From contig NZ_RXNQ01000001.1 in NCBI RefSeq assembly GCF_004138205.1, forward strand, positions 1-64,000: 64,000 bases of DNA. Direction: 5' to 3'. The translations under genes and the position numbers were made by a program. Below, piece by piece: positions 3,764-54,267 of this stretch; the first letter of the stretch is position 1, and every line of letters begins with the position of its first letter. The stretch is from Pedobacter sp. SYP-B3415 (lineage in GTDB: Bacteria > Bacteroidota > Bacteroidia > Sphingobacteriales > Sphingobacteriaceae). The notes beneath the pieces were generated by a model. The model searched no databases. It saw only the letters and a list, made by a program, of their open reading frames with translations, and was not told the DNA's origin.

Positions 3764-6700
3764 ATGAATAATACAAGCAGTTCGGCATTGCCGCCTGTTG
3801 CTTTGCGCATCTTTGACACCCTGCCAGGTCAATACCTGGTCTTGTCGCCGCAGCTAACTATTCTTACTGCCAGCAATAGATACCTGAAGTTCGCCAACCT
3901 GAGCAGGGAGGATATTACCAACCGTTCACTTGCTGATGTCTTTTCCGGTTCCTTGTTTAACTGGTCAGATGAGGCGAAAAACCTGATAATTGAATCGTTG
4001 CAGCAGGTTGTGACCACTCAGTTCGCCGAGCAGTTATCCATACCTGGAGCCTTCTCCGAACCAGCGACCGCCCCGGTAGAAGTATTAAACCACCCGGTTG
4101 CAGATGATGACGGTGCTGTTGCCTATGTGATCCATGAAATTCGTTCCGTACCGGCAGGAGACGCTATGCAGGATAAATCGGCAGAAACGATTCGCATGAA
4201 AGAAGATGCGGAAACCGGCCAGCACGACAGTGACATGCAAGTTCTGTTCGATGCAGTCCCCGCCCAGATTGCCATTCTCCGGGGGCCGGATCTGACCTAC
4301 TCATACATCAACCCACAGTATAAAAGGGAGCTTTTTCCACACCGGGAAGTGTTGGGTATGCCGCTGCTGGCGGCGTTACCTGAGATCAGCAACGATCCGA
4401 TCGTTCAGATCCTATACTCGGTGTATCACACAGGCAAACCGTATATTGATACTGAGATCTGCGTACCCTTGGCCGCTGAGGCCGGCGGCGAGCTGGAAGA
4501 CCATTTTTTTAACGTCGTCTACCAACCGCTGCGCAACGAAGCGGGAGAAATTGATGCACTGCTAAGCTTCAAATACGAAATTACCCAGCATGTTGCAGCC
4601 CGGAAACTCCTGGAAGAAAAGACGGCAGATCTCGAAGTTCTTAACAACCGGCTCCATGATGCCTACCAGGAGCTGCAGGCTATAAACGAAGAACTGAATG
4701 CAAGTAATGAGGAGCTTCAGGCTACAAATGAAGAACTGAACCAGGCCCAGGATGAACTTGCCATTCTCAATGAAACGCTTGAACAACGCATTCTGGAACG
4801 TACAGCCAGATTGCAGGACAGCGAGCATGAACAGCAGGCGCTTAATGAAGAGCTGATGGCCGTGAACGAAGAGCTGTCATCGACAAATGAAGAACTGATT
4901 GACAGCCGCACGCGGATTGAAGAGACCGCCGAGCAGCTTGCCATGAGCGAACAAAAGATCAGGAGCCTGGTAGACAGTGCCCCCTTTCCGATTGGTGTGT
5001 ATGTTGGCCGCGAAATGCGCATAGAAATGTTGAACCAGGCAATTATTGACACCTGGAACCGCGGCAGCGACCTGATCGGCAAAACATACGCAGAGGTCTT
5101 GCCCGAACTTGCAGATACCGGGGTTTACGAGCACCTTGACCGGGTGTACACGACCGGCATACCCTATCACACCAGAAACGAAAGGGTTGATCTGCTGGTA
5201 GACGGCACACTCACGCCGTTTTACTTCAATTACGATTTTACGCCACTTTTTGACAGCAGCGGCAAGGTTTACGGCGTAATGAATACCGCAGCAGATGTAA
5301 CTGATCTTGCTAACGCCAAATTGCAGGCTGAGCAAAGTCAGAAAAGCCTGTATAACATCATTATGCGCTCTCCGGTGGCAAAAAGTATCTTGCTTGGTGC
5401 AGAATACAATGTAAATGTTGCTAACGACAGGATGATCACCCTTTGGGGAAAATCCCGTGAGGAAATGATGAACCACCCTATCTTCGAAGCACTGCCAGAG
5501 GCCAAAGGACAGGGCCTGGAAGAGCTGCTGGCCGACGTTTATAACAACGGGCAGACCTTTGAGGCCAAGGAAAGAGCTGTTTCACTACTGAGAAACGGCA
5601 GCCTGGAAACGATTTATCTTGATTTTGTTTATCAGCCCTACCGCGACGCACACGAAAACATTATCGGTGTGATCGTGACTGCCATTGATGTGACGAGCCA
5701 GGTTGTATCCAGGGAGCGTGTACAGCAACTCAACGAAGAACTGGCTGCAACAAACGAAGAACTTCAATCGGCAAACAACGTTCAGGCGGGTATAAACGAA
5801 GAGCTAAACGCGCTGAACGAAGCACTCAAACTTAGCCAGGCCGAGGTCCAGCTCGCAATCGATGCAGCCGGTCTTGCAACCTTTGACCTGAATCCTAATA
5901 CCGGCAGGTTTGCAGGTAACGATATGACTAAGGCCTGGTTTGGGCTGCAGCCTGCAGACGAGATCGAGCTTGAAAAAGCGGTCGCTGCCATAGCTGAAGA
6001 AGACCAGGAACGGGTGCAGCAAGCCATTGATACGGCGATGTCTTACGCTTCAGGCGGAGACTATGACATACATTATACGATTATCAATCCGCTCGATAAA
6101 GTGGCAAGGGTTGTCAGGGCAAAAGGAAAGGCCCAGTTTAATGAGAACCGAGAGCCCATCCGACTCAGCGGCGTTCTTCTCGATATTACCGAGCAGAAAA
6201 AAGACGAGCAGAGAAAAAATGACTTTATCGGCATAGCCAGCCATGAGCTGAAAACGCCATTGACCTCCCTCAAGGCGCTTATACAGGTTACAGGCCAGAA
6301 GCTGAAAACCAGCGAAGACCAGTTTCTAAAAAATACTATAGAAAAATCTGGCGTACAGGTTAAGAAGATGGAAGCCATGATCAATGGTTTTCTGAATATC
6401 TCAAGGCTGGAATCGGGAAAAATGGCAATTGAGAAAACACGGTTCAACCTGCAAACGCTGATTGAAGAAATCATAAAGGAAACTGCGCTGACAACAACAA
6501 GTCACCAGATCGTATTCGAATCCGGGTGTCCGGTTGAGATAACCGCCGACGCAGACAAAATTGAATCAGTCATATCAAATCTGATCGGCAATGCGGCAAA
6601 GTATTCTGCCCGCGGCACTAATATTACGGTAAACTGCCAGCAAAGTTCAAAGCATGTCACGGTAAGTGTAACCGACCAGGGCATGGGCATTACACCCGAA

Positions 6701-6889
6701 GATCAGCAGCGGATTTTTGACAGGTATTTCCGTGTTGAATCCAGCCATTCGCGGCATATTTCAGGCTTTGGTATTGGTCTCTATCTCAGTGCCGAAATTA
6801 TCCACCTGCATAAAGGTGAAATAGGTGTTACAAGCGAGCCGGGAATTGGGTCGACTTTTTACATCAGGTTACCGCTGGATCTGGACTAA
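3764..6889 (+). CDS. Multi-PAS sensor histidine kinase (cytoplasmic)
   Basis: This 1041-residue protein has no signal peptide or transmembrane segment. About five PAS-type domains (roughly 12-130, 160-285, 400-525, 528-650, 695-815) are interleaved with coiled coils built from repeated NEEL/TNEEL motifs (about 285-400 and 650-690). HisKA follows, with the phosphoacceptor His827 in ASHELKTPL, and then an HATPase domain with N-box NLIGNAAKYS, DQGMGI and GFGIGLYLS. It autophosphorylates on His in response to signals sensed by the PAS domains. There is no receiver in the protein and no response regulator next to it, so its partner is unknown. The downstream kinase at 7120 shares the C-terminal kinase region. 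Confidence 0.92.
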   Translation: MNNTSSSALPPVALRIFDTLPGQYLVLSPQLTILTASNRYLKFANLSREDITNRSLADVFSGSLFNWSDEAKNLIIESLQQVVTTQFAEQLSIPGAFSEPATAPVEVLNHPVADDDGAVAYVIHEIRSVPAGDAMQDKSAETIRMKEDAETGQHDSDMQVLFDAVPAQIAILRGPDLTYSYINPQYKRELFPHREVLGMPLLAALPEISNDPIVQILYSVYHTGKPYIDTEICVPLAAEAGGELEDHFFNVVYQPLRNEAGEIDALLSFKYEITQHVAARKLLEEKTADLEVLNNRLHDAYQELQAINEELNASNEELQATNEELNQAQDELAILNETLEQRILERTARLQDSEHEQQALNEELMAVNEELSSTNEELIDSRTRIEETAEQLAMSEQKIRSLVDSAPFPIGVYVGREMRIEMLNQAIIDTWNRGSDLIGKTYAEVLPELADTGVYEHLDRVYTTGIPYHTRNERVDLLVDGTLTPFYFNYDFTPLFDSSGKVYGVMNTAADVTDLANAKLQAEQSQKSLYNIIMRSPVAKSILLGAEYNVNVANDRMITLWGKSREEMMNHPIFEALPEAKGQGLEELLADVYNNGQTFEAKERAVSLLRNGSLETIYLDFVYQPYRDAHENIIGVIVTAIDVTSQVVSRERVQQLNEELAATNEELQSANNVQAGINEELNALNEALKLSQAEVQLAIDAAGLATFDLNPNTGRFAGNDMTKAWFGLQPADEIELEKAVAAIAEEDQERVQQAIDTAMSYASGGDYDIHYTIINPLDKVARVVRAKGKAQFNENREPIRLSGVLLDITEQKKDEQRKNDFIGIASHELKTPLTSLKALIQVTGQKLKTSEDQFLKNTIEKSGVQVKKMEAMINGFLNISRLESGKMAIEKTRFNLQTLIEEIIKETALTTTSHQIVFESGCPVEITADADKIESVISNLIGNAAKYSARGTNITVNCQQSSKHVTVSVTDQGMGITPEDQQRIFDRYFRVESSHSRHISGFGIGLYLSAEIIHLHKGEIGVTSEPGIGSTFYIRLPLDLD

Positions 6890-7086
6890 GCGGGCATAGT
6901 TGCATTTCTGACAGCCGGCGTATCGTCGGGAAAAAGTGGAATTCCGCACGGGGAATATCCCGTTCATTGTTTTGGTCAGGTACACCAGATCTGGAGAGAC
7001 CACTATTGCTTTGTCCATTATTCCCAGCTTGTGTACATAAAATCTGATGCTGTTTCCTGCCACCTGGCTGGACTGCCTGTTTTTTC

Positions 7087-50571: not shown

Positions 50572-51053
50572 CACTGTTGTCTGGGGAAAGTTCGCGAAAG
50601 CCCATAGTCCTTTGGTTTCCAATAGATGTGAGCCTATAGTATCGGACCGCTCACCGCCGCGGGGCTCCTTCTTTTTCTTGGAAAAGAAGCAAACCGCTCC
50701 GGCTGTGTATCTCTTCTTGCATAAAAGCATCAAAAGTCCGACGGCGGCGGGAAAAGGCCCGGATTACCCCTGCGTCATTCCGTTCCGGGCTGGTTCCCCT
50801 CCTTGGTTCCTCCCGACCTCCTTAGAACAGTGCAAGACTTTTAATACTTTTCTGCGGCGAGAAGATACAAGGCCGGTCCGCATCTATCAGTGGCAATAAT
50901 CAGGCAAAACCCTCATAGAAACCACCGCCTGTACGTAAAACCCGCACACATATAATACAGGGGGGCTTGATTCAGAAGACTCAGGCAAATACTGCTTTGA
51001 GACTGTTTCAGAAGGATCTTATTTCACTCGGCGAATTCAACCGGACAACACTG
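50572..51053 (-). mobile_element. MITE-like element copy 1 (482 bp)
   Basis: It is bounded by terminal inverted repeats CACTGTTGTCTGG at 50572 and CCGGACAACACTG at the right end. The perfect 10-bp direct repeat GCTCGTGGCT flanks it (50562-50571 and 51054-51063), as expected for a target duplication. It contains no transposase. The body is highly similar to the reverse complement of copy 3 (60649-61188), for example around aagaagagatacacagccgg and cgccgccgtcggacttttga. An ORF of 181 codons across the element is a by-product. Confidence 0.8.
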
Positions 51054-51225: not shown

Positions 51226-51256
51226 TTTGCAAATCCAAAATACTCGCATAACTTTG
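51226..51256 (+). promoter_or_regulatory. Complete -33/-7 promoter (TTTG-N19-TAACTTTG)
   Basis: TTTG at 51226-51229 and TAACTTTG at 51249-51256 are separated by exactly 19 bp, the ideal Bacteroidetes arrangement. The -7 box overlaps the left half of the palindromic operator. The ATG is at 51277. Confidence 0.75.
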
Positions 51257-51272
51257 CAAAACAAAGTACTTT
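51251..51272. promoter_or_regulatory. Palindromic operator ACTTTG-N5-CAAAGT (+ ACTTT)
   Basis: ACTTTG-CAAAA-CAAAGT is a perfect 6-bp inverted repeat, immediately followed by ACTTT so that AAAGTACTTT is a second palindrome. A sister copy with the same spacing lies at 52234-52255. It is the probable binding site of the HTH_34 regulator encoded at 51918. Confidence 0.65.
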
Positions 51273-51276
51273 TAAG

Positions 51277-51921
51277 ATGACTGATCAACAGGAACAGATT
51301 TCGGCATTGAAAGACATCCGCAAGATGATGGAGCGCTCGTCCAGATTTATCTCATTGAGCGGACTTTCTGGCGTTGGCGCCGGTATATCGGCACTGGTTG
51401 GTGCTTTCCTTGCGCAGCGCGAACTTGATCGCTTCGGAAACAGCCGCTTTGGCGACGCCCGGGCCTACGCACCCGGTGTGAGCGGGGAAACTGATCTCGA
51501 ATTCAACCTGATCTGTATTGCCCTGGGTGTACTGGTCGCTGCACTGAGTTCCGGATTTCTGTTTACCTGGCTAAGAGCCCGCCGCGGCGGCCTTCCGCTG
51601 TGGGATCGCACCACCCGCAACATGCTCGTTAACCTGTTCATCCCGCTATTTGCCGGAGGATGTTTCGTACTGTCACTGCTGGTCAATAATTCCGGTCTGG
51701 TTGCACCTGCCTGCCTGATCTTTTACGGCCTCTCACTCATCAACGCCTCAAAATATACACTCACTGATATTCGTTACCTCGGATTTCTGGAAGTTATTCT
51801 CGGCATCATCAACCTGATCTTCCCAGCGCTGGGTTTAATCTTCTGGACAATCGGCTTCGGCATCCTGCATATCCTCTACGGTACAGTGATGTATTTTAAA
51901 TATGAACGCAAAAGCACATGA
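51277..51921 (+). CDS. Four-helix membrane protein of an HTH_34-linked operon
   Basis: From the ATG at 51277 (MTDQQEQISALKDIRKMMERSSRFISLSG) the product has 214 residues. A polar N-terminal helix is followed by about five or six hydrophobic segments (LSGVGAGISALVGAFLA, LICIALGVLVAALSSGFLF, MLVNLFIPLFAGGCFVLSLLV, GLVAPACLIFYGLSLINA, then YLGFLEVILGIINLIFPALGLIF). The DIRKMMERSSRFISLSG start recurs in Bacteroidetes proteins of unknown function next to small winged-helix regulators. Its TGA overlaps the ATG of the regulator (ATGA), so both are translationally coupled. It starts under the operator promoter. Confidence 0.8.
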   Translation: MTDQQEQISALKDIRKMMERSSRFISLSGLSGVGAGISALVGAFLAQRELDRFGNSRFGDARAYAPGVSGETDLEFNLICIALGVLVAALSSGFLFTWLRARRGGLPLWDRTTRNMLVNLFIPLFAGGCFVLSLLVNNSGLVAPACLIFYGLSLINASKYTLTDIRYLGFLEVILGIINLIFPALGLIFWTIGFGILHILYGTVMYFKYERKST

Positions 51922-52217
51922 AAAACCCGATCGAGTCGTTAAATAAGATTTTCGACAGCCGGATCCGTCTGGGTGTGATGTCAGTGCTCATGGTAAACGA
52001 ACGCATTAACTTCAATGACCTGAAGCAGATGCTGGAACTGACCGACGGCAACCTCGCCTCACACCTCAGCACGCTTGAGCAGGCCGCACTGATCTCTGTT
52101 CACAAAGCTTTTGTCGGAAAAAAAACCAATACAACCTACCAGGCAACAGAGGCAGGCAGACTCGCCTTTAAAAACCACCTCGATGCCCTGGAAAAAATGA
52201 TTAAAAATATAAGCTAA
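51918..52217 (+). CDS. HTH_34-type winged-helix transcriptional regulator
   Basis: The 99-residue protein is a single winged helix: FDSRIRLGVMSVLMVNERINFNDLKQMLELTDGNLASHLSTLEQAALISVHKAFVGKKTNTTYQATEAGRLAF-type pattern with recognition helix DGNLASHLSTLE and wing TYQATEAG. It has no separate ligand domain. This is the small MarR/ArsR-like HTH_34 family of Bacteroidetes. Overlapping its neighbour by 4 bp and with two copies of a palindromic operator in the operon, it is probably an autoregulator. Confidence 0.9.
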   Translation: MKNPIESLNKIFDSRIRLGVMSVLMVNERINFNDLKQMLELTDGNLASHLSTLEQAALISVHKAFVGKKTNTTYQATEAGRLAFKNHLDALEKMIKNIS

Positions 52218-52233
52218 TTTTTTTTGCACATAC

Positions 52234-52255
52234 ACTTTGAAACACAAAGCACTTT
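52234..52255. promoter_or_regulatory. Second copy of the palindromic operator (ACTTTG-N5-CAAAGC-ACTTT)
   Basis: ACTTTG-AAACA-CAAAGC, then ACTTTT, lies 9 bp before the ATG at 52260. This is the same distance and spacing as the copy at 51251; one base of the palindrome differs. Confidence 0.65.
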
Positions 52256-52259
52256 TAAA

Positions 52260-53867
52260 ATGAAAATAAAAATTAAATACGACTTGCTCCCGCTGCTTTC
52301 AATCGCAGGCGGTCTTCTTTTCAGCCTGCTATTCTGGGATCAGGCGCCCGGCCTCAATAAACTGGTTTACTCGGCTTTTATTTTGCTGGCGTTGCTTTTA
52401 AGCCGGAACGTTCCTGCAGACAAAGTCTTTGCCCTGTATGCGGCCATACATCTTTTTTCGGCGCTAATGATTGTAGTGAACCATTCTGAAATGGCGGCCT
52501 GGGCTTACTACATCAGCCTGTTTGCATGGGTGGGCCGTGTACATTATCCGCTTTTGAAGACTGCAGGAACGGCAATCGTTGCAGGCATTTTCCGGTTTGC
52601 CACCTTGCCCTACACCCTTTTTCAGCGCCTGAAACGGATGCGCATTGCAGGGATCTCACTCCGCCCCGTTTTGCGCCAGCTTAAGTACGTGCTGCTGCCC
52701 GCGTTCATACTACTCGTTTTTACACTCGTTTATGCAGCAGCCAACGAACAGTTTGCCGATATGCTGTCACGGCTGATCAATTCGATATTGGATGCCATCA
52801 GTCTGCTTGAAAAGATCATCTCAGTTAGAATGATTCATATCCTTGCAGGCATGGCCATAACCGCAGCCCTGATCCTTAACTATGAGCCTTCTTCATTTGA
52901 AAGAATAGAAAGCCGGCTTACCGAAGCGCTGATCAGAAAAGAAAGGCACGACCGGACGAAATCTGCGTTACATGCGTTTGCCGAAATTTTTTCCATTAAC
53001 CTGTCGGGCCGTAAAATGGCGCTGAAAACGGAGTTTATCAATGCCCGCATCTGTTTTGCGCTCCTAAACCTTCTGCTGTTATTTGTGAATGTGCTTGATA
53101 TGATCACCCTGTTCACGAAAGGTGCTGACCTGAATAATCCTTCGGCAGCCTTGCATGATGGCACAAATGCACTGATCTTCAGCATCGTGCTGGCCATGGC
53201 AGTGATTGTTTTCTTTTTCAGGGGGAACCTGAACTTTTTAAGTAATAACCGTCAGCTGAAACTGCTGGTCTATGTATGGATTGTGCAGAATGCATTTCTG
53301 GTTCTCACCGTCGCCCTGCGCGATTATCATTATATAGACCTTTACGGGCTTACCTATAAGCGGATCGGTGTTGGCGCATTTCTGATTCTCTGCTGCGCAG
53401 GACTTTTTACGGTTTACGTTAAGGTAGCTGCAACGCGAACCTTCTTTTACCTGTACAGGTGGAATGCCTTTTTCTGGCTGATATTCCTGACAGCTGGTAG
53501 TGCTGTAAATTGGGATGTGGTAATTGCAGGCTATAATGTAAACAGGGCAGACCGGATTTCACTCGATGTAGATCACCTGATGGGCTTGAGCGACAAAGCC
53601 ATTGCAATCCTTCATACAAACCGTGATCTGCTTAAAAAGCAGGTCGCTGCGATTTCAGAACAGGATGATCGCACGACCGTTCCAAAACCCGGGCAAGATA
53701 GCCTGAAACAGGATGCCGGCGCCTTACAGCTTGAAGCAGCAAAAGAATTTTCAGAGCAGCTGGAATCGAAAATTGAACTGTTCCGTAAGCGGCATGAAAA
53801 AAGTGGCTGGCAGGCCTGGAACCTGCCCGACCAGCGAACAGCGAGGTATCTTGAACATATAAAGTAG
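52260..53867 (+). CDS. DUF4153/DUF4173-family polytopic membrane protein
   Basis: From the ATG at 52260 (MKIKIKYDLLPLLSIAGGLLF) the product has 535 residues. About twelve hydrophobic helices are followed by a soluble tail (about 445-535, ISLDVDHLMGLSDKAIAILHTNRDL and a Glu/Lys-rich C-terminal helix). DYHYIDLYGLTYKRIGVGAFLIL matches the Y-G-L-T-x-x-R motif of the DUF4153/DUF4173 group. Function unknown. It is 42 bp after the HTH_34 gene with its own operator copy, so it may have a separate regulated promoter. Confidence 0.82.
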   Translation: MKIKIKYDLLPLLSIAGGLLFSLLFWDQAPGLNKLVYSAFILLALLLSRNVPADKVFALYAAIHLFSALMIVVNHSEMAAWAYYISLFAWVGRVHYPLLKTAGTAIVAGIFRFATLPYTLFQRLKRMRIAGISLRPVLRQLKYVLLPAFILLVFTLVYAAANEQFADMLSRLINSILDAISLLEKIISVRMIHILAGMAITAALILNYEPSSFERIESRLTEALIRKERHDRTKSALHAFAEIFSINLSGRKMALKTEFINARICFALLNLLLLFVNVLDMITLFTKGADLNNPSAALHDGTNALIFSIVLAMAVIVFFFRGNLNFLSNNRQLKLLVYVWIVQNAFLVLTVALRDYHYIDLYGLTYKRIGVGAFLILCCAGLFTVYVKVAATRTFFYLYRWNAFFWLIFLTAGSAVNWDVVIAGYNVNRADRISLDVDHLMGLSDKAIAILHTNRDLLKKQVAAISEQDDRTTVPKPGQDSLKQDAGALQLEAAKEFSEQLESKIELFRKRHEKSGWQAWNLPDQRTARYLEHIK

Positions 53868-53922: not shown

Positions 53923-54267
53923 CATTGTCTTTGGGTAAAAAGTTGAAGAAGGAAACAAGATCTTTCTGAACAGTCTCAAAGACTTTTGATGCTTTTATGC
54001 AAGAAGAGATACACAGCCTTGACTTCATGCCAAACGCAGTGTAATGCGGAGGGATCTCCCTGGTGCTCGGCATTGCCGTCACCTTGATGAAAAAAGCTTT
54101 ATAACGAGCAAAGGTGAGATTCCTCACCGCACAATTCGCGGCAGAAACAATTTGGCCTGCGGTTTCGGAAGGAACCCCCGCGGCGGTGAGCGGTCCGATA
54201 TCACAGCTTACATTTATTGAGAACCGAAGGGCTACAGATTACGCAAAACTATCCCCGGACAACAGTG
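53923..54267 (+). mobile_element. MITE-like element copy 2 (345 bp, rearranged core)
   Basis: The left end CATTGTCTTTGGG is worn; the right end is CCCCGGACAACAGTG. Imperfect 10-bp direct repeats AACCGTAAAT and ACCCTAAAAT (7/10) flank it. It shares agatctttctgaacagtctc and acttttgatgcttttatgc at the left and cgcggcggtgagcggtccgat at the right with copies 1 and 3, but its middle part (about 54025-54165) is different. It contains no gene. The preceding stretch 53868-53922 holds a GC hairpin with no T-run. Confidence 0.7.

Follow-up and report, generated by a model that had tools for sequence, protein, structure and literature searches.

A candidate repressor-dependent terminator in the HTH_34 operons of Bacteroidia: an internal operator placed at a fixed distance behind a T tract

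Regulators that sit on DNA within a transcribed region are expected to stop the polymerase that runs into them, and the available parts of the literature on LacI, CcpA and CodY describe such roadblocks (PMC4132739, PMC10310618), which can end transcription in vivo with the help of Mfd and for which the sequence upstream of the roadblock is listed as a factor left untested (PMC4132739). The locus that we describe here shares with them a DNA-bound regulator inside a transcription unit, but its site also has a T tract, invariant and at a constant distance, for which those parts of the two papers describe no counterpart. The Pol I terminators (Reb1, Nsi1, TTF1) do have a T-rich element, on the non-template strand and at a fixed short distance upstream of the protein site; Pol I pauses within this element, some 15 bp upstream of where Reb1 binds, the element and the protein jointly drive deep backtracking, and the combination requires an upstream RNA hairpin (PMC12366685). 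A third point of contact is the CreBC regulon of E. coli and Stenotrophomonas (PMC4689548), through CreD, a frequent target behind the second operator in relatives of our locus; here, however, an HTH_34 repressor would be in control rather than a two-component system, and the DNA in hand carries a DUF4153 gene, not CreD. The regulator itself is most like PH1061 (1ub9), of the HTH_34 family, which it resembles in fold and size and which is its nearest solved structure (Foldseek E 6e-06, TM 0.79). The open literature that we searched yielded no operator, regulon or mechanism for HTH_34 proteins, nothing on the regulation or role of DUF4153, and nothing on point that combines a bacterial roadblock with a T tract. 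We also take the ArsR-like SdpR/SdpI type to be a relative in design, presumably having in common with our locus a small, ligandless, autoregulated winged-helix repressor encoded beside a membrane protein; our regulator, however, scores 15.6 bits on the NCBIfam SdpR model (cut-off 100), and gene 1 is not recognised as SdpI.

The DNA analysed, which we call the window, is a 64,000-nt forward-strand stretch of Pedobacter sp. SYP-B3415 (contig NZ_RXNQ01000001.1, assembly GCF_004138205.1), and it supplies all coordinates unless a locus or contig is named. The operon and its putative control elements are as follows.

51226..51229, + strand: -33 box TTTG of the operon promoter (TTTG-N19-TA in aligned site-1 sequences)
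51249..51256, + strand: -7 box TAACTTTG, overlapping operator 1 (TA before RCTTTG in the same alignment)
51251..51267, + strand: operator 1, promoter type, ACTTTG-N5-CAAAGT (sequence, genome and family motif searches, alignment)
51268..51273, + strand: third half-site ACTTTT abutting operator 1 (RCTTT conserved after CAAAGY)
51277..51921, + strand: gene 1, a 214-aa membrane protein and the regulator's constant partner (conserved family, all-helical model)
51918..52217, + strand: winged-helix regulator of the HTH_34 family, 99 aa, sharing 4 bp with the end of gene 1 (family match, model)
52218..52225, + strand: T8 tract directly after the regulator stop codon (sequence, aligned loci, class-wide search)
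52226..52233, + strand: spacer GCACATAC, an invariant 8 bp from the T tract to operator 2 (gap exactly 8)
52234..52250, + strand: operator 2, internal type, ACTTTG-N5-CAAAGC (sequence, genome and family motif searches, alignment)
52251..52256, + strand: third half-site ACTTTT abutting operator 2 (sequence, alignment)
52260..53867, + strand: DUF4153 membrane protein, 535 aa, the target behind operator 2 (family match)

Family membership is clear for the second and third of the three genes. The regulator matches HTH_34 (PF13601) along the full length of the model (positions 1-80 of 80; 96.7 bits, cut-off 27) and is the one protein in the whole genome above Pfam's cut-off for that family, while its winged-helix fold is predicted with a pLDDT of 93. 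Two other assignments were rejected: as an ArsR/SmtB metal sensor the protein reaches 28.8 bits, below the cut-off of 55, and lacks cysteine, and as a PadR it reaches 17.2 bits, below the Pfam cut-off of 27, despite similar structures. The gene behind operator 2 is a member of DUF4153 (PF13687; 122.8 bits, cut-off 27), so that of the two families proposed for it at the outset, DUF4153 and DUF4173, only the first applies. The product of gene 1, whose N-terminal segment is MERSSRFISLSGLSG, matches no family above cut-off, the best being a sub-threshold match to DUF308. Its predicted model is all-helical and confident (pLDDT 88), and it found no match in the PDB (best E 1.3), so the fold gave no function.

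The two operators read ACTTTG-CAAAA-CAAAGT-ACTTTTAAG-ATG (site 1, 51251-51279) and ACTTTG-AAACA-CAAAGC-ACTTTTAAA-ATG (site 2, 52234-52262), and in both a conserved RCTTT abuts CAAAGY directly as a third half-site. The preliminary description had placed two copies here with 9 bp between CAAAGY and ATG, and the sequence agrees exactly. The bare palindrome is no commoner than in shuffles (22 copies with at most two mismatches in the window, 26.6 expected), and the case for the motif must therefore rest on the full motif. In the 4.47-Mb genome this has four exact copies, with every other match at three mismatches or more, and in 101 genomes of the family it gives 78 exact matches against none with the reversed pattern, which was put through the same search as the control for the motif statistics.

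At site 1 the operator overlaps its own promoter. The sigma-A-type sequence TTTG-N19-TAACTTTG is exact (51226-51229 and 51249-51256), as first described, and the overlap of the operator with the -7 box, also part of that description, is visible both in the window and in relatives: among 80 aligned site-1 sequences TA stands before RCTTTG in 77, and TTTG lies 19 bp 5' of that TA in 62. Since TAnnTTTG covers -12 to -5 in flavobacteria (PMC9723704), transcription is predicted to start near 51261, the last base of the N5, and to give a 16-nt leader. Conservation of the site was followed in the 80 closest HTH_34 homologues from a species-level genome collection (Pedobacter, Chitinophaga and others), which were picked by protein, and site 1 is present in all of them whose locus covers the place.

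Site 2, which lies behind the regulator in 79 of these 80, is an element of another kind. Of its 79 aligned counterparts, 7 have TA at the -7 position and none has TTTG at N19, so that the aligned loci do not show a sigma-A promoter of the form TTTG-N19-TAnnTTTG. They do show a T tract: in 79 of 79 site-2 loci, which again were close homologues chosen by protein and not by motif, exactly 8 bp separate RCTTTG from the end of a T run, which is mostly 7-9 long. Because site 2 lacks a promoter and has its own T tract, we regard the two sites as different elements, and the initial picture of a duplicated operator, that is, of two equal sites, has to be given up; two equal operators serving two promoters are ruled out by the missing promoter at site 2. 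The equal 9-bp distance to ATG, true of the window, likewise does not extend to relatives, in which the distance from site 2 to the start codon varies and that to the T run is fixed.

The gap of 8 bp is seen well beyond the close homologues. In a pooled set, 141 sites have the T tract at gap 8 and 23 have it at any other gap, and a search of the whole class in which gaps between 0 and 30 were all permitted gave gap 8 in 30 of 44 matches, with none for the control (binomial 1e-34, relatedness ignored). The tract keeps a constant distance to the operator, lies 0-4 nt from the stop codon and is variably spaced from the next ATG. Two side observations concern other gaps. In L235 and L250, from one flavobacterial genus, a T8 lies at gap 7, not 8, in the spacer of a promoter-type operator that precedes a gene encoding about 224 aa; in G347 a second operator 78 bp downstream has a T-run at gap 9.

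The pattern T6-N8-operator also travels with the regulator. It occurs in 247 of 300 genomes of the order (one control match) and in 77 of 395 genomes drawn from the phylum (control 0), and among 98 genomes from the same class or from closer groups it is found in 58 of the 78 that have the regulator and in none of the 20 that do not (Fisher p 4e-10, relatedness ignored). The enrichment at HTH_34 and DUF4153 loci that the preliminary description had looked to a genome scan to find is thus there, in these last counts as in the 78 exact matches against none within the family. The recognition-helix segment T-D-G-N-L-A-S-H is nearly invariant, as is the operator, and autoregulation by the HTH_34 protein, suggested at the start, is made likely by this conservation and co-occurrence. 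Outside its own family, nearly all inspected loci run in the same sequence of operator 1, gene 1, HTH_34 gene, T tract, operator 2 and envelope gene, and the layout is, as far as these genomes tell, kept across much of Bacteroidia. The lone exception among the 80 close homologues, L083 (Chitinophaga sp. SYP-B3965), has a different gene behind the regulator. There, at about 6285-6370, a frame beginning MFFKRLQSFRFAFNGIRSFLRSEP follows directly after the HTH_34 gene, with neither operator 2 nor T tract; we assume that it perhaps encodes a DgkA-like kinase.

We think that the regulator may be an autorepressor that prevents initiation at site 1 and works as a roadblock at site 2, where a U tract would aid release of the polymerase, and we give this reading of the sequences an even chance of being right. 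A dimer would bind RCTTTG-N5-CAAAGY together with the abutting RCTTT half-site. On site 1 it would cover the -7 box and the start point and so prevent initiation, a step that is well supported by the sequence. On site 2 it would halt polymerase that leaks from promoter 1, and the T7-9 tract 8 bp upstream would leave the stalled polymerase with a weak rU:dA hybrid, which would favour backtracking and release. The outcome would be a graded double lock, in which leakage from promoter 1 sustains gene 1 and the repressor while the envelope gene (DUF4153 or CreD) stays off. In its most general form, the proposal is of a hairpin-free, repressor-dependent terminator across Bacteroidia, where a single repressor shuts the promoter and also terminates transcription before the envelope gene, much as Reb1 does; this is a tentative idea, to which we would grant slightly less than an even chance.

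The position of the T-tract sites bears on this directly. Another operator lies 83-1255 bp upstream, in the same direction, in 135 of 141 cases, and site 2 is nearly always inside a transcription unit begun at a site 1. Of the remaining six, L087 is at a contig end, in L180 a weaker operator precedes the site by about 60 bp, and in the four with no upstream operator (L167, L178, L218 and L220) the TTTG of the operator could itself serve as a -33 box. Targets that are not linked to the regulator gene show a promoter site, then a 60-110-bp leader and then a T-tract site (L161, L162, L163, L164 and L180), and an RNA hairpin is present in the leaders of L161 and L180. As a separate observation, the reverse strand of L164 at about 6805-6900 holds a 13-codon frame, MTTKLLFAKDIKA, between the promoter-type and T-tract operators; it ends 3 nt before the T tract and is possibly a leader peptide.

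The strongest rival to the roadblock is that the T tract belongs to the operator itself and extends it at internal sites, the minor groove of the A-tract being read by the wing, by a second dimer or by some other protein. Affinity would then be higher where no promoter constrains the sequence, and site 2 would repress by occupancy or by looping to site 1. It suits this explanation that the tract keeps its distance to the operator and not to the genes, and that a weak consensus, R-N-C-Y-A-T-T-T, can be read in the 8-bp spacer. The tract is likewise present at some -33-type operators that lack upstream transcription, namely six that have no operator upstream and a T tract at gap 8 (L167, L178, L218, L220, L232 and L233), all of which stem from a search that required the tract; of the tandem sites of the -33 type collected without that bias, 0 of 5 have it, which speaks against the explanation. 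Promoter-type sites argue in the same direction, with a T tract at gap 8 in 1 of 160 in the pooled set although their 19-bp spacer has room for it, and with 6 as the longest T-run ending 6-10 bp upstream (in 3 of 90). Orientation speaks against it too, the T being on the coding strand and upstream of the operator in the direction of transcription. We consider this explanation possible but unlikely.

A second independent promoter at site 2, repressed through the operator and with the T tract in place of the -33 and -7 elements, is an improbable alternative. In its favour, the gene behind site 2 forms a functional unit of its own and there are short leaders that carry two such sites, but the promoter elements are missing from the aligned loci, as set out above, and the T tract lies too close to the operator for -35/-10 spacing. 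The main text of the F. psychrophilum study (PMC9723704) has nothing alike among its six motif classes, which include TAnnTTTG variants, sigma-54, TAnnTTGY and an ECF CGT box.

It is very doubtful that the element works in the mRNA, with U8 and an ACUUUG-N5-CAAAGU hairpin controlling translation or processing downstream. Five inner pairs of the stem never vary and the whole element is transcribed at site 2, yet 69 of 141 T-tract sites have A-C as the outer pair, so that base pairing in RNA is not kept; promoter sites conserve the sequence as well, although there the left half stays untranscribed, and the distance to the start codon varies. Equally remote is the idea that the tract is the end of a common intrinsic terminator behind the regulator gene, with no relation to the operator. 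Its place directly after the stop codon might speak for this, as might an adjacent hairpin of 5 bp or more in 14 of 135 sites; against it stand a gap to the operator that is exactly 8 bp in different families and the lack of excess folding upstream of the tract (mean z -0.05 over 135 sites), so that the G+C-rich hairpin with U run of such a terminator is not what these sites have.

The same scarcity of hairpins must be weighed against our own proposal of a roadblock with U-tract release. Like the Pol I terminators, the T-tract sites place a T-rich element at a fixed distance within a transcribed region; the RNA hairpin upstream, by contrast, is found only in some leaders (L161, L180). Because the Pol I system requires its hairpin and most sites here are without one, this counts against release at a roadblock, and so does the tendency of a closely trailing ribosome to push polymerase through. 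Also against the proposal are the -33-type operators named above that carry the tract with no operator upstream, and the two flavobacterial promoter sites with T8 at gap 7 (L235, L250). The bacterial sites differ further in being conditional on a repressor and in having a gap of 8 bp instead of about 15 bp, and this shorter gap is another point against. We would read the resemblance as one of working and not of descent.

The operon had been seen as a self-contained module, a view that its own genome contradicts, since the regulon includes unlinked genes. Exact operators stand before two membrane-protein genes elsewhere, one of promoter type before a DoxX-like gene (contig C35) and another before the gene for a protein of 111-113 aa (contig C23). 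At C23:66829-66871 (L015, about 3830-3877) this second, small membrane-protein gene is preceded by two tandem operators at a distance of 27 bp; the TTTG of the first forms the -33 box and that of the second the -7 box, so that the repressor sites double as promoter boxes. In relatives the genes behind site 2 encode DUF4153, CreD (E 4e-151) or proteins of 112, 243 and 414 aa, the last three with no family above cut-off in Pfam or NCBIfam. Separately, a 261-bp intergenic repeat occupies 50640-50900 of the window and has about 30 near-full and many partial copies in the genome. Two arms of it, 38 and 25 nt long, recur inverted at 53981-54018 and 54176-54200 and so frame the operon, and the DoxX-like gene on C35 has a copy of the repeat some 150 bp upstream.

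What would lift the repressor off its operators is probably a protein partner, because the 99-aa regulator lacks both a ligand domain and cysteine, and the membrane protein of gene 1 would be the most likely, if tentative, candidate. It might possibly be a signal-input or anti-repressor subunit, and by analogy a membrane anti-repressor of the SdpI type is a possible role. That the module senses some signal at the membrane, as was proposed from the first, is a guess prompted by gene 1 being a constant membrane partner of a regulator with neither ligand domain nor cysteine.

The regulon belongs to the autorepressor kind, and the internal operator with its T tract is what is new. HTH_34 and DUF4153 proteins are widespread in Bacteroidota, and the HTH_34 family now gets a precise motif, a likely manner of regulation, and a regulon that takes in DUF4153, CreD, DoxX-like and other membrane proteins. 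If the T-tract site does end transcription, a repressor and a U tract would together make a simple conditional terminator, and this, if true, would bear on the question of what makes a protein roadblock release the polymerase.
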